Notes under the pieces: model-generated
What the model saw: the letters and a program-made list of their open reading frames with translations, nothing else
What the model was told of the DNA's origin: nothing
The model's database searches: none
DNA from: Trichinella spiralis
Taxonomy: Eukaryota > Nematoda > Enoplea > Trichinellida > Trichinellidae
Assembly (NCBI GenBank): GCA_000181795.3
Contig: CM012955.1
Coordinates: 13,987,108-14,051,107 of the forward strand
DNA length: 64,000 nucleotides
Reading direction: 5' to 3'
Program-made: the position numbers and the translations under genes
Shown here: positions 35,244-44,900 of the stretch, in pieces
How the letters are laid out: each line of letters starts with the position of its first letter
Numbering within the stretch: the first letter of the stretch is position 1

Positions 35244-38200
35244 TTAAATTTCCGGTTTCGAGAATGCCACACGCAGATTACCATTTTCAGTCAGAGGATA
35301 GTTGTGCATTTTCTAAAGCATGCATACGATAGATAACATATTATATAAATCTGATATCACAAACTGATAAACTGATAAGCTGTATCAAAAAAAAATCATA
35401 CAATTAATGCTTCTACTGCCTGTTCCAATGACTCGAGATGAACAGTGGCCATTTTTCTGTTGGTTGCAAAAAATCTGAAATATTTGACTTCAAATCCAGC
35501 TTGCTCGAAAATATTTTTTATAAATTCTCCGCTAACAGAATGTCTAAAAAAATGAACAAAAAAATATACATATAATAATACGAATGTAATAAAGGAAAAA
35601 GAAATGTTGTTACGGAATATTGGACAAATGTAAGCGGAAAGAAGGTGGATAAATGTTCGTGTAATTTTTGCTTCCGGGTGTTTTAAATCGGTGCAGAGTA
35701 GAATTGGAATAATCTTTGGTTAAACCATAATCCTGTGAACAGAACAAATGTGAGAACATCAACAAGTGACAAATATTAATTATTATTACCGATTGGCCTT
35801 CTTTCAGCAGTTGAACAGAGGTATGTTTAGAAAGTGATACATGCATCGGTTTTCCCCACAAACATACACCGTCCAAATTGTGTATTGCTTAATGATTTTA
35901 ATATATTGCGCATTAAACAAAAAATTAAAATATACAAATTATTAGTTTACCTTGCTGAGCTTGACAAGGTTCGGTGTATTGAATAAGTGCAACTGTTTTG
36001 TTGTAGCAAAGTATTTTCACTCTTTGCACGTCACCATAAACTCCTGAATTTCAATAACGATAATAATAATAATAATAATTTGTTAACAGAAAAGAGCAAG
36101 CAACCAAATAATTATTTTTTTTTGAATAAAAGCAACAAAAATACATGAAAAATTAGTAATAAAAATTAAATACAGCATATAAAATAATTGGACGTTCTTT
36201 TTCTTCAACCGTTCGTGCACAATTTTCAACTGCATAACTTGCCAAACAAAAAAGAGAATTTGCATAATTTCCATAACAAAACTAAAAATATAAACGTAAA
36301 AAGCATAAAATAAAAAAAGCGTTTAAAATGAGCCAAAAAACCCATGTTTGATATTGGAATGATGCTGTTCAATGCATTCTGGTCAAAAGAAAAAAATCAG
36401 CATACGCTGCTTACTGATAAGCTTTAAAACAGACTGTATTCTCGACAAGAAGAAGAAGAAGAAATGAAAAGGAAATAATTCAATATGCTTATATATATAT
36501 ATATATCAGTGCTCCGAGTTTACATTTTTCAACAATTATAATAAAATATGCCATCCGTCTTTGTTCGCTCGATTGAAAAGTACATTTTGAACGGAAAGAA
36601 TTTGCTTCTTGATTATTTGCTTTTTCAACTTTGAAATACAATAAGCATATGCAGATCTATTTCATCATTAATAAACAAATAAATAAAATCTGAAAAAACA
36701 CATGTCAAATCATTATCATGCGTAAATTTGACAAACAATTTGATCACTGGTTGGTCAACAACTGCCACCGTTCTATGAAATATGAAATCTGAAAATGTGT
36801 TCTGTCTCCTTATTCATTTTTCTTTTTCCCTTTTGCACATGCCTTTTTGAACAACAAGCATCATGCATGGAACGTGCAAAAAATTAATATAAACAAAATT
36901 TAGGAAATCATAAATTAGCACACATTATAGTTAGTGATCAACATTTACAATAGAAAAGACAACAGAAAAAAACAGCCAAAATTAAAAAAAAATAAATAAA
37001 TATGTATATTTATTTGTTTATTTCATAAGGCAAGACATACCAAAGAGAGTGAACAGAGCGTCGGGCGTGACTTTCTAAAAAAAGAGTCACAATGAATAAC
37101 AGTAGCACAGGAAGTGAAAGCAAAAAAAAACTGATAATATTCTTAATAAAAGTATTAAAAAATGAGCTTAAAAGCAGCAGTGTAGGTTGCAGAAAAGCAA
37201 TGCCAAAATATGTATATAGAAAAGATAATATATATATAAATAAATTTGTAGAATGTAATAGAATAGAATAGAGTAGAAGAGAAGAGAAGATTAATAAATC
37301 ACCGATGCTGATTGTTCGAATCAAAATGGATAAAGTATAGAAAAAAAATAAAAAAATTAAAACTAAGCCTTGCAAATTAGATGATCATAAACAATTAATT
37401 GCAAATAAATAAAATTTAGAACAGTTCGTTCAATTTTTACACAACATTTTTCGACAAAACACCGCCTAATCATCTCGAAACAACGCCCACTAACTAAACA
37501 TGTAATAAGTTTGTTCAAAGACGTCTGCTTTATTATTATTATTATTATTATTATTTGTTTTCAAATTAATTTTACAATTTATTACAGTATACAAATAATG
37601 AAGCTTCATCAATTAATTCTCTTCAAAACAATTTGCTTTTTTCACAATTTGCTTCAAAACAATTTGTAACAAATAACACGCGTCAAAATACAACTAGTAG
37701 AATTGAAAAAAAAATTTTTTTTTCTTTTTCCTTCAAAATTTCAATTATCAATAATAATAAAAATTATATGATGCAACATGAATTTTTAGTCAAAAATGAA
37801 GATAAAAATTATCAAATTGTCACTTACTTCCGCCTCCAGATTGGACACCGTTACAACAGAGCTTAACGGTGGTGGAGGTTTGGAAAATCTTTGCGGCATT
37901 TGCAGCGCCGATATGCGACCATGCTGAAGCGCAGTATTGGTTGGAGTATTGAAGCTGACAGCCGATATTGGCAAATTGGTTGGCGAAATTCCACCTCCTG
38001 TGTCATAGAAAATGTAATTATTTCTGCAAATGAATACACCTTTTCAACTTGTTCTCAATTTTGTATAAAAGTGTAAAATTGGAATCTGATCTGAGAAAAT
38101 AATAATAACAATGTGCATGAACATGCTCGTGAAATTAATTTTAAACGGATTTTTAATCCTAGCAATTACTTGCAATGTGAACAGCAGCAGGGGCGAATGG

Positions 38201-38881
38201 ATTCGCAATAGCCACAGAAGGTGACAAACTTGCGTGCAATGGTGAAAACGCAGGCACAGCTGGCATCACAGTTGCTGAAATAACAATATTTCAACGATGA
38301 TGACAAGAGAATTAAATTAAAGAAAAAAAAAGATATCCATGATGCGTTGCAATGAAATTTGCTCCTCATCTCACCCAAACGTAATCCTTGGCCAGTTACT
38401 TCACCGGAAGGAAGATTTGGATTCGTAAAATCACGAGACTTTTCATTGTTGTACTTCACGTTCAGTGTTGCCAGTTTACTGAATTCAATTTTCAACGTAC
38501 AACAGCCGTTGATCAATGGTTTCCCATCTAATGCCTACATTAATTTAAAAAAAAATTCATTCTGACTTTTTTATTTCACAAATTCATCGCCATCATTTAT
38601 TTCTTTATTTATTTACTCATTCCACCGTAATTGATTATTCAAAAAAATAATGAATTACAAATTTTACCATTTTTGCTGCATAAGCAGATATAGGATCTAA
38701 AAACTGAATCAACGCTTGGAAGTTGTCTAAAAAATAAAAAATAAGAAAAAAAAATCAACGCTTCTGCTAGTTGTATGTGGAGAAAAAATAATGCGATTCA
38801 CAAATTATTACTTACTATTCTTATGGAAAATAATAATACGCAGGACGGTACCAAATGTCACGAAAACCTAAAAGAAACCAA

Positions 38882-38915
<34 letters not shown>

Positions 38916-41900
38916 ATAAATTTTCAAAATTCACTTCCCCCAGACAAGTGAAAATTCAAATATTACGCTACTGTTTATTTATGCTAACGAAATTAACAAA
39001 TTTAGATGAACCAAATGGCGCACAAAATCAAGTCGCTAAGATGCAGTTGATGATATTTTATGATAAAGTGTGTGAAAATCTTCGCGAACAATGTCTAACA
39101 AGAAAACAAGAAAAGAATTTTGTCAAGAAGCTTTGAAAATAGCATAGATTAATTTAAAAATGCAATTATAATTGGAAGTTTTTTTGAGAATTATGTGTTC
39201 CAACTGTAATAAAATGGAATTTGATGGTCGAATTCGAATTTTCGCTTCTATTCATACACCCCACCCCTCCCAGTGCTTTTTATAATCCTACGCAATTGTC
39301 TGCAAGCTACAAGGATCAGTGTGTTCTTGCATGCAAGCTTAGCAGAAGTTAATAGACTGTCCGGTGCATTTTTTTTAAATAAAACATTGTGACTATAGCA
39401 GTGGATTCATGCATTACGAATTTACTCAAATTCTGCCTTATTCACACGCTGTGTTGGACTATGCTAGCATGAAAGCAAAAATACTGCGCTTCCAGACATG
39501 CCTGGACTAGTTGAACCGTCTGTGGAGCAAGCGTCAATCGTGGGACCGTTGCTGACGTAAGCTAACCTGCCGTTCGCAGCGCGCTTCCTTTCCCTTCACT
39601 CTAATATTCATATCTCTTTCATCTAAGCATCAGTAGCAGTTATTTAGCTTCGGGGTTTGGTTAAGTCGTTATCACTACTGTTATTGTGTGGAAGCTCATA
39701 TGCGGAAACAACCTCTGCATTGAATCTGCAGATCCACAGCTACACACACAAACACCAGTACCTAAAAGTAGGATTTATCTTTTTGGCGATTTTGAAATCG
39801 ACGAATGTTGACGGCCGACTCTATAAACCCACGAATTGAATAAAATTACTCTATCAGCATGTTCAAAGTTCTTTTGCGCAAGTCGTCTGTTTTACACGTC
39901 TTATATTTATACAAATTGATAATTGTACCCAAATGACTGCTTTTATAAATTTCTAAAGGGAAAATTTGAAATAATAAATTCTATAAATTTGTACAAATGT
40001 GCAAATTGAAGAGAAGAAAAATAATTTAAAAAATACATATTTTAACCAAATATTACTCGAAATGCAATAATTTTGAGAAATCAACGTTCATGTAAATTAT
40101 GTTCATTATTTAGTTATATTTAAAAGAATTCCACCATACCTGATGAAGTACTTCCAAAGTGACTGCATAAAAAATATTCGTAACCACCACAAGAAGCACA
40201 GTACCTCCTGTTTCTCTTTTTGGAACTGCAGCAGTATTATTAATACCCCTGAGGATTCCACGATTCTGTTCTGTAACTAATGATGCTTCTTGATCGGATA
40301 AATTCTAAATAAATAAAAAATAGTACAACACGAAAAATGCAATAAGAGAAAAAAATACCAAGCCAGAGAAATGTTTCTTGTTTTCAGAGAATCGACTCTG
40401 AGAATCCAAAACTGTATGATAGGAATACTGACAAAAAATAGTTTTGCCACGGATGACGACCGGATTCTCGTCCACAGCGCTGATCAAAGCTCTGGCGCTG
40501 GTTATGGTCGCAAATTGTAAAAACCCCTGTAAAGAAATGACAAAATTTGAATATTTTTTTCAAAAAAAAAACAGATTAACAGATTACTTGATTCTTGCCC
40601 TTCAACAGGAGCACTTTTTCAATTTTACCATACGAGATGAAATGTTGAACAAGTTCAACTTCTGTAAGATTTGAAGGCAAATTGCGCAAATGCACCACAC
40701 GGCTGATGCTACAGCTATCGAAGATGCTTTCCTGATTGGAAGAAACTGTAACTTCCTCGGATACAGCTTCTTCCTCGTCCTGTTCGTGCTCATCGTTGTC
40801 GTCGTCGTCCTCGTCATCTTCTTCATCTCCTACTACTCGTGCTTCTTCTTCTTCTTGTTGTTGTTGCTCACCAAATCGAGGCTATAAAAAATTAACAACT
40901 ATCATTTTGGCTGGTCGACAAGAAAATTTCTTCAATTGAAATGAAAATTCAAACATAAACGCCTACTCACCTTCTTAGCGTCAGTGTTCGAACGAACTAC
41001 AGTGCCCTCGAACTTGACGCTCATTTCCAACTCATCACTCGAAGCTGTTAAATCGTCCGGAGGTGCTCGCTTAAAAAATATTTCAAAATACATAATTTTT
41101 TAATACAAAAAAAAATTAATCATTAATAATTTATGCAAGTATGGATTTAAAATATTAAAGAAAAAAAGAACAATAAAGTTTGTATTTTCACAAAATTGTT
41201 TGTAAAATTTTGCATTTTTCGAGTAGAAAAATAATTCGAAACAGTTCAAATTGAAAACCAAATATTTCCAACAGCAAGCACACATCGAAACCCCTCCGAA
41301 TATAGCCCGGGATCATTTTTTCAACAACACAAATTTGAAAAATGCTTTTGCTTTTGCTGCTGTTGATGTTCAAAATAAATAATTGAATTCGATTGAAAAG
41401 TTGAACAATTTTAAAACTTTTCAATTTATCATTTTCTTTTTTTTGTTTTGTTCTATCGCTCGTCATTCATCCGTAACGAAAAAAAAACACTTGATTTGCA
41501 GTAAGTTTCATTTTGTTGTTCCCCGATGGCAAAAAATCAGTGAAACGAAAGAAGAATAAAGCAAGCAACGGATGATCAGTAAGCAAATCTACAGTACTTT
41601 CACAACGAATAACACGTCATCCAGATTTTTGAAGTGATAAAATTGAAAGTAACATCTGCAGCGTTTGCTTGAAACAAATCAATTGTAATTTGAAATTTAC
41701 AAAACTGTTGTTGTTGTTGAATTTTGATCGATCAATCGACTAATTAACATTTCCACGCATATGATGAAGAAATTAAACTTCAGCTGAAATGAAAATAATA
41801 CTAATAATAAAATGATGAACAGAGCAATACACCATGATAGATGTGATTTTGAACTCGGCATCGGATTTTTATTCATAATCAATGAATGAGAATGATAACA

Positions 41901-44900
41901 AGTACAATTAGCAGAATTTGATCAACAAAAGTCATTTTTTGTTTTTCAATTTAAAAATGCTGTTCATATTTCAACTCGCACAACCCACCTTTGCTATTAG
42001 AATACAATTTTCTCTTCAATTAAACTATTCCTTCGTCAAAAACAAACGCTGCTCCACTAATTAATTGAAACGCTTTCAACATGGCACTTAATGGATCACA
42101 AAGCAAAGCAAATCTCAGATTTACTTTTAAAAATAAAAATTCCATCAACTTGTAAAACAAGCCAACATCTATGAGTCATCATGGTGAAATTGAATGATAA
42201 CAGCAATGGAAGGGACAATTTGCAAATTCACACACGTAAATATATTAATACCACATTTTCAGTTTAGATTACAGTATGATATATTTAGTGTAATTTCTTT
42301 TTTTTTGTCAATGAGCAGAGTAAAAAGAGTTTGAAAAAAGAATAAAATAATAAAATAATAAAATAATAATAGACATACCACTGTTTGAACAAAATTTAGA
42401 CAATCGATAAGTGTTCGTTTGAGATTCAGTGCATTTGAATTGAGTGAAACTACAGTTGCAGATGTACTGTGCATGGTGAAATGTAGATATGTATATATTT
42501 TTTTTCTACCTCTCTTATCTAGGAGATCCAACTCAATCACTAGTAAAACAAAATTGAACAAAACTGAGAAAATAAATCCTTTGAACTAGGAGAAAAAGCA
42601 GCGGTTGGTTGAGAAACAGTTGCTGAAAACAGCTACAATCGATTCCCAACAGCCAGCCTAGAGGAAAATATTCTCGAACAAATAAATAAATATATGACGC
42701 AAATGCCGACCGTTGTTTTCATCACTGTCCATCCAAGTCACCGCCTTTTGGCAGGCAATTAATTGCACTTTTGGGTTGTGTTCATTAAAATTCAATACCT
42801 AGACGTCAGCGTGAATAAAAATCAACAATTTTTTGAACCGCTAAAGTAAATTTTACTACAAAATACACCTGAGCGGTAGTGTGAACGTTGAAAAATAAAA
42901 TAAAATTATCCAAATGATCATTTGTACAACACTGACAATTGACGTGTGATCTTGTCGTGCAATAAATGACATTGATGAAAAAAAAGTGAAGTAACATTCA
43001 TTGCTTGCTACTTTTTAAAATACCCCCAATTGATTAATCTGTTGATTAAAAATATATATATATAAATAGGAATTTAAAAAAATAAAATTCAAACTCTGGA
43101 TTAGAAAAAAAAAAGAGCTTCTGCTCAAATGAAATATATATATATATACATACGTACATGCGTTGTTGTTGTTGTTGTTGATGATGATTTGACAAATGTT
43201 TTAAGCAACAAGACAACAAAAAAGATTAATTGATGAAGCATGGCTCGAACTTCGATGGCTTCGAAAAACAAATGATCTCTGCAAATGGCAGCAGTAAAAA
43301 TGGAAGCTTATTTGAAATACAGGCGTAAAAAGTGGCTACAAATCGACAGTAATATATATCTAAACGATAGTTGAAGAGAAAAAAGCAACAAAAAAGAAAA
43401 GCGCAAGTGCAACCATCTGGCAAGCACACATTCGATGCGTATGATAATGTTGGGGAAAAATCGATACGGCCGACCCGGCCGCGCTCCATTGAAAACCATT
43501 TAATTATTCGATTATGACCGTTTTCAACATTACACCACAAGATGGTCAGCGAAAATAAAAGCTCCATTCAGTTTTTCACCAATTCCAATTATATATACTG
43601 GTCAACTTGTGCAACGATAAATTTACAGTATCGGCTACAATAATTGCCCAAAACAATACTTGCCACTGCATACAATAAAAATCTCGATACAGCTTCTTCA
43701 TGAAAGAGTAATTGTGAATTAAATTGAAAAAAAAACATAAATTTTCCACAATTTTTTTTCATTTAATTGATCAATTTGATCAACAAACACATACAGTAAA
43801 CATCCATTGTAGAAGGGATCATTTCCATTATAAACAGCAAGCAGTTTGATGAAATGGGATACTATTTGAGTGGAAAAAAAAATCATCAATGGGAAACAAA
43901 AATGATTTTATTCTGCCGACTGTAATGAGTTGATTTTGTTATTGGATTTTTACAGGAATAAATTGAACAATTAATAATTAATACAAGCAATAAATTGAAC
44001 TGACTTGAAATGCTCCTCAATTATAACTCTTGTAATGGTATAAATTTGAAAAGAGAAGAAAAATAAAATGAAACTTTCCAACAAAAAAAATGATAAAAAT
44101 TAAAATTGTTTTGTTGTTGTTGTTGTGTATTTATTGTAATGAAATTTTACATTCAGTAAATTGAAAATATTACAACACGTTTTTTTTCCTTGTTCAAAAA
44201 ATCGCATGCGAAAATTGCAAAGCGAAATTGAAACAACCACCGAACGTGGAAAATATAGTATGCAAAAAAAAATCCAAGTTGTTGTTGCTTTTAAATTGAA
44301 AAATTTCACAATTGTGAAAGTAATAGAAAAATATTTTAAAAAATAACAACTAAAACCTGCACAGTAAATAAATAAATAAATGAAATGGACAAATTCGCTC
44401 GAATTGTTTTCTTCGATCGGGATATGGAATTGAAAATTAAAAGAAAATACAACTTCGTGGTCGTAATTTGAATAAAATCAAACAAACAAAAATTATTCAA
44501 AATAAAAAATTTGTTTTTTTTCTTTTCATTTTCATGCAAATGTCATTCTTTCACGTGGAATGGAAAAAAATTACCATATTGAAAAAACACTGACCAATAG
44601 AAAGAATGTGAATTCGCGCGCGTGGAAATTTGAATGGCAAACAAAATTTAAAGTTGAAAAAAACTAAAGCAACAACAAATATGACAAAAGCGATACGAAC
44701 AATCGAATGTTTGTTGTTCAATACGTGTGAAATTTATTTTTTTTAATATATTCTTTATGCATAATCAACAACAACAACAACAACAGTAGCAATAATTTTA
44801 AAAAAGATTTAAATTTCAATTGAAAATGAAAAGATTGAAAATAAAATCTACAATGCTTTCAGTTATTTTAATTTTTGCCACTTTTACTGGTTGAATAATT

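Follow-up and report, generated by a model that had tools for sequence, protein, structure and literature searches.

Autoregulation of PTB through an exon of the third RRM has been described in both worms and mammals. In Caenorhabditis elegans, exon 11 of ptb-1 is a 34-nt cassette that encodes part of the third RRM and shifts the reading frame if skipped; the skipped forms are degraded by nonsense-mediated decay (NMD) and are absent in a ptb-1 mutant, and the conservation of this exon with mammals was already remarked there (Tomioka et al. 2016, PMC4876481). The counterpart exon of mammalian PTB and nPTB is regulated in a PTB-dependent manner, and is set against exon 10 of ROD1/PTBP3, which has a conventional branchpoint (Spellman et al. 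2007, PMC1940037). A separate 34-nt exon, exon 2 of PTBP3, lies elsewhere in its gene and is also PTB-regulated, and its skipping is not NMD-sensitive (PMC4477659). Here we report on a window of 64,000 nt from Trichinella spiralis (assembly GCA_000181795.3, contig CM012955.1, positions 13,987,108 to 14,051,107, forward strand), in which exon 11 of the PTB gene is probably the T. spiralis copy of the animal PTB autoregulatory 34-nt exon, controlled by PTB itself via skipping and NMD.

Judged from its sequence, the minus-strand gene at 42474-35244 is the T. spiralis PTB gene. The modelled protein scores 525.3 bits against TIGR01649 (hnRNP-L_PTB; cut-off 287.4), which places it in the PTB/hnRNP-L family. 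Its closest protein among the matches listed is T. spiralis PTB (P0001; 100% identity, 95% of the query covered), and its best PDB matches are PTB RRM3-4 structures. Introns are at most 172 nt long in 11 of 15 cases, the long ones being introns 1, 5, 10 and 11. When the RRM3-4 segment was searched against the T. spiralis genome (53 Mb), all five matches fell in exons of this same gene, which leaves no paralogue within the genome to use as a control. The features on which the argument turns are these, the exons and introns having been placed by exon joining:

35244..42474, minus strand: PTB gene, 16-exon coding model of 640 residues (exon joining, TIGR01649, database protein)
37828..37997, minus strand: exon 10, 170 nt, ending GAA/gtaagt in phase 0
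37075..37827, minus strand: intron 10, 753 nt, preceding the 34-nt exon
37041..37074, minus strand: exon 11, 34 nt, KVTPDALFTLF and the first base of a glycine codon
36044..37040, minus strand: intron 11, 997 nt, following the 34-nt exon
35951..36043, minus strand: exon 12, 93 nt, starting with the remaining glycine bases and VYGDVQRVK
36017..36019, minus strand: TGA read on skipping, where the end of the valine codon GTG meets the first base of the lysine codon

Exon 11 is entered in phase 0 and left in phase 1, has AG and GT at its borders and lies at the start of RRM3. Joining 37828 to 36043 gives GAG TTT ATG GTG ACG TGC AAA GAG TGA, or EFMVTCKE followed by a stop, and four junctions lie 66, 164, 283 and 425 nt further on. 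Exon joining thereby bears out the original prediction, made from the letters of this DNA, of a 34-nt exon encoding KVTPDALFTLF of RRM3 whose skipping is followed by eight codons, a TGA and four downstream junctions; its coordinates were correct to within a few bases. The eight-codon spacing to the stop is also that of human PTBP1. Homology to the tested worm exon is what makes the autoregulatory reading the most likely one. It is further supported by the size, phase, place and stop of the exon, by tested homologues in C. elegans and in mammalian PTB and nPTB, by long introns on both sides with a long UC run in each, by the gene model's only CTCTCT, which lies in the exon, and by the presence of NMD genes. 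A chance origin of exon 11 was considered and rejected because size, phase and place all match the tested C. elegans homologue.

By analogy with those homologues, plentiful PTB would bind the pyrimidine-rich sites around and inside exon 11 and repress its splicing. Exon 10 would then be joined to exon 12, the frame would shift to the stop at the V-K TGA, and the skipped PTB mRNA would be degraded by NMD; with PTB scarce, exon 11 would be included and full-length protein produced. That skipping occurs in Trichinella, that PTB causes it and that these sites are used is what we infer from the analogy. The place of the stop is set by the protein sequence, namely the conserved V-K codons. Among 200,000 random synonymous recodings of VYGDVQRVKIL, half stop at the V-K pair and the others are stop-free in that stretch, because only the choice of valine codon matters (GTA or GTG).

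Candidate PTB sites were found on both sides of the exon and within it, UCUU, CUCUCU or related sequences being core PTB motifs (PMC1940037):

37275..37290, minus strand: UC run TCTTCTCTTCTCTTCT, some 200 nt before exon 11, candidate PTB site
36447..36463, minus strand: five TTC units plus TT, weaker candidate PTB site in intron 11
37042..37049, minus strand: CTCTCTTT, candidate PTB site at the 3' end of exon 11, before its final G

Several observations weigh against the autoregulatory reading and have to be set beside this evidence. A stop upon skipping is generic: of the 14 internal exons eight are non-triplet, and every one of these yields a stop, which in seven of the eight is followed by at least one junction. 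The built-in stop emphasized in the original prediction is therefore present without being special. Total UC content in the introns flanking exon 11 is also ordinary. We scored UC coverage with seven self-chosen UC pentamers, and compared it with 300 dinucleotide shuffles per intron and with background tiles cut from 20 randomly drawn 10-kb stretches of this genome, of which 25,242 of 200,000 bases were masked (one stretch entirely) and N-containing tiles dropped. Coverage was 26 bases in intron 10 (38.1 +/- 11.5 in shuffles, z -1.05) and 39 bases in intron 11 (29.4 +/- 10.2, z +0.94), values reached by 35% of 858 and 27% of 650 tiles, respectively; intron 1 gave z -0.64. The sole UC-enriched long intron is intron 5 (40139-38868), which does not flank the exon (57 bases, z +2.60, 0 of 300 shuffles). 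The TTC 17-mer of intron 11 is common, with 1182 genome matches (overlaps counted). Only 54 nt before exon 11 are free of AG (222 nt for intron 1, 151 nt for intron 11), so an extended AG-exclusion zone is not seen upstream of exon 11 and the mammalian distant-branchpoint arrangement is not evident in Trichinella. We take a distant branchpoint with an extended AG-exclusion zone to be a mammalian trait. Finally, when truncated isoforms were sought among Trichinella proteins, the 3 hits among 8 candidates were all full-length.

The claim that the upstream pentamers and the downstream UUC repeat are ideal PTB targets was accordingly overstated, given how common the TTC repeat is and how ordinary the UC content of the flanks. 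Both elements do exist: the repeat lies on the minus strand exactly where it had been placed (36463-36447), and the upstream run is present as TCTTCTCTTCTCTTCT, at 37290-37275 instead of 37271-37290. Intron 5 has a UC cluster near 39119-39100, and its enrichment might serve another regulated event.

It is the longest unbroken UC run, rather than total coverage, that sets the flanks apart. Runs as long as those of intron 10 (16 nt) and intron 11 (17 nt) occur in 12 of 858 and 9 of 650 tiles, a signal that is only suggestive because the measure was picked post hoc, after the original prediction had pointed to these runs, and because tiles differ from introns. Among pyrimidine-matched overlapping tiles, 3.9% of 462 (intron 10) and 3.5% of 849 (intron 11) reached the longest run. 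With sliding windows the corresponding fractions for introns 10 and 11 were 2.7% and 2.3% for a width of 20 nt, 7.3% and 7.7% for 40 nt, and 17.1% and 5.1% for 80 nt, the signal fading as the window widens. In the genome, the 15-nt core of the upstream run is matched 16 times, at 11 places, and its reversed control (the same period-5 repeat in another register) 19 times. UCUU occurs 9.3 times per kb in intron 10 and 11.0 times in intron 11, compared with 5.3 in intron 1, 7.1 in intron 5 and 0-30 in the short introns. As to PTB-binding motifs beyond chance, the picture is thus a mixed one of ordinary total coverage, a rare longest run in both flanks, and a CTCTCT in exon 11. A TGCATG, which we take to resemble an RBFOX-type motif, also lies in intron 11 (36867-36862, minus strand); one per ~1 kb is unremarkable by chance.

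No CTCTCT other than the one within CTCTCTTT occurs in the 16 coding exons or in introns 1-15. This is a mild oddity and no more, because 7-8% of random synonymous codings of the exon 11 peptide carry CTCTCT (TCTT appears in 30-38%). It is conceivable, though we think it quite doubtful, that the RRM3 peptide has the switch built into it, with a CUCUCUUU PTB site put against the 5' splice site by the ALFTLF codons and the out-of-frame stop set by V-K. If RRM3 codons did supply both site and stop, the loop could have lasted since the nematode/vertebrate ancestor with no need of conserved intronic elements.

The generic stop and the ordinary UC content of the flanks are what would be seen if exon 11 were ancient and constitutive, with inherited intron positions, the exon always included, and the stop an idle result of its length. 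This is the main rival to the autoregulatory reading, and we consider it unlikely without being negligible: C. elegans, a closer relative than the mammals, regulates its homologous exon, and both flanking introns are long and carry unusual UC runs.

Protein models were used to look for the exon in other species. We compared 227 proteins, taken from 120 of 1924 and 120 of 1589 matches listed for two queries, the second of which omitted the exon 11 segment and therefore favours models without it. Twelve of the 227 lack the segment although both neighbours are kept (P0006, P0122, P0123, P0124, P0136, P0140, P0165, P0187, P0189, P0192, P0205 and P0221). We set aside P0121 and P0181, which have larger gaps, P0158, in which the segment is present and followed by extra residues, P0218, which is one residue short, and P0129, in which the pattern is located elsewhere in the protein. 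Four of the twelve are from nematodes (Trichuris trichiura, Acanthocheilonema viteae, Litomosoides sigmodontis and Thelazia callipaeda), and the replacement starts with V in A. viteae, VS in L. sigmodontis and VKK in T. callipaeda, the pattern to be expected had a gene predictor overlooked so short an exon and continued across the GT of the 5' splice site before it. The segment is present in all four Trichinella proteins and in Trichuris muris. Evidence of this kind, from predicted proteins, is indirect, but it hints that several lineages of nematodes have a separate exon with these borders.

Machinery for the decay step was found as well. In T. spiralis, profile searches of the genome gave matches to the UPF1 and UPF3 models, and an EST1-family open frame is present. 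The Pfam models for Upf2 and SMG1 gave no genome match, and their controls were silent too, so these null results show nothing; two adjacent MIF4G domains in one open frame are an unconfirmed UPF2 candidate. In a published survey of 121 animal genomes, T. spiralis was among the three in which SMG1 was not found (PMC5709506). A kinase segment on the minus strand at C1:6283574-6284107, reached via a kinase model, has SMG1 as its best match (68.6 bits, against at best 51.2 for TOR, 45.7 for MEC1 and 37.5 for ATR), and a separate locus is clearly ATR (152.6 bits). Because this segment matches SMG1 above TOR, MEC1 and ATR, an SMG1-like kinase is probably present in T. spiralis despite the published non-detection. 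NMD machinery in this species would then include UPF1, UPF3, the SMG1-like kinase segment and the EST1 family. The kinase searches also returned a PI3/PI4-kinase pair at C3:12101926-12102711 and C3:10211291-10212076 (431-aa frames each; 71.8 and 71.4 bits), which may reflect a recent duplication or a copy made in assembly.

Skipping might alternatively yield a functional truncated protein of RRM1 and RRM2 ending in EFMVTCKE and escaping NMD. The skipped reading frame does retain 464 residues, and skipping of exon 2 of mammalian PTBP3, albeit a different 34-nt exon, is not NMD-sensitive (PMC4477659). This explanation is nonetheless very improbable, as four junctions lie downstream of the stop, NMD destabilises the skipped forms in C. 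elegans (PMC4876481), and no truncated protein was returned among the Trichinella proteins (3 hits among 8 candidates). Regulated skipping by a non-PTB factor such as an RBFOX-type protein would suit the intron 11 TGCATG and the ordinary total UC content, but can hardly be credited when a single such motif per ~1 kb is unremarkable and the homologous exon is PTB-dependent in C. elegans (PMC4876481) and mammals (PMC1940037).

The gene model itself likely has first exons other than the one modelled. Possible alternative first coding exons lie on the minus strand at 47904-47860, 46258-46220 and 42474-42379, the first of them being used by the database protein P0001. C. elegans ptb-1 likewise has alternative promoters (PMC4876481).

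The autoregulatory interpretation is probably right but not new, since the C. elegans loop has been tested and published (PMC4876481). The same applies to the proposal that the feedback loop predates the nematode/vertebrate split: exon 11 is best read as the conserved autoregulatory exon, but a loop common to nematodes and mammals was already in print for C. elegans. A ptb-1 cassette event in C. elegans is listed as carrying no premature termination codon and as hardly altered in smg-1 (0.06; PMC2265522, Table 3); the listing does not say which exon is meant, and we count it neither for nor against. Among the papers listed in our literature searches, no title on Drosophila or wider animals concerned this exon outside mammals and C. 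elegans, no title or abstract shown on Trichinella NMD or alternative splicing contained PTB, and no Trichinella paper on this exon was found; in the portions available of PMC4379411 and PMC13247117, PTB is named solely in the reference lists. What is added here is the CUCUCU of the exon, the V-K stop, the four segment-less nematode models and the SMG1-like kinase. Trichinella is an early branch of the nematodes. Adding this genus to the known cases in which a splicing regulator limits its own level favours PTB autoregulation as an old animal trait over two inventions.

Against the known systems, the position of exon 11 is as follows. The exons of mammalian PTBP1 and PTBP2 have a distant branchpoint and an extended AG-exclusion zone, unlike the Trichinella exon with its 54 AG-free nt, and ROD1/PTBP3 exon 10 shows that a counterpart exon can be constitutive (PMC1940037). 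For C. elegans ptb-1, skipping, NMD sensitivity and PTB dependence come from experiment, whereas for Trichinella they would follow from homology. As in mammalian PTBP1 exon 11 and PTBP2 exon 10 (PMC1940037), skipping shifts the frame and candidate PTB sites lie around the exon; exon, frame and stop are common to Trichinella and mammals, the distant branchpoint not being evident in the former. The likeness is closest to C. elegans ptb-1 exon 11, with which the Trichinella exon shares its 34 nt, its place in RRM3, its exon number, and the frameshift and premature stop on skipping.
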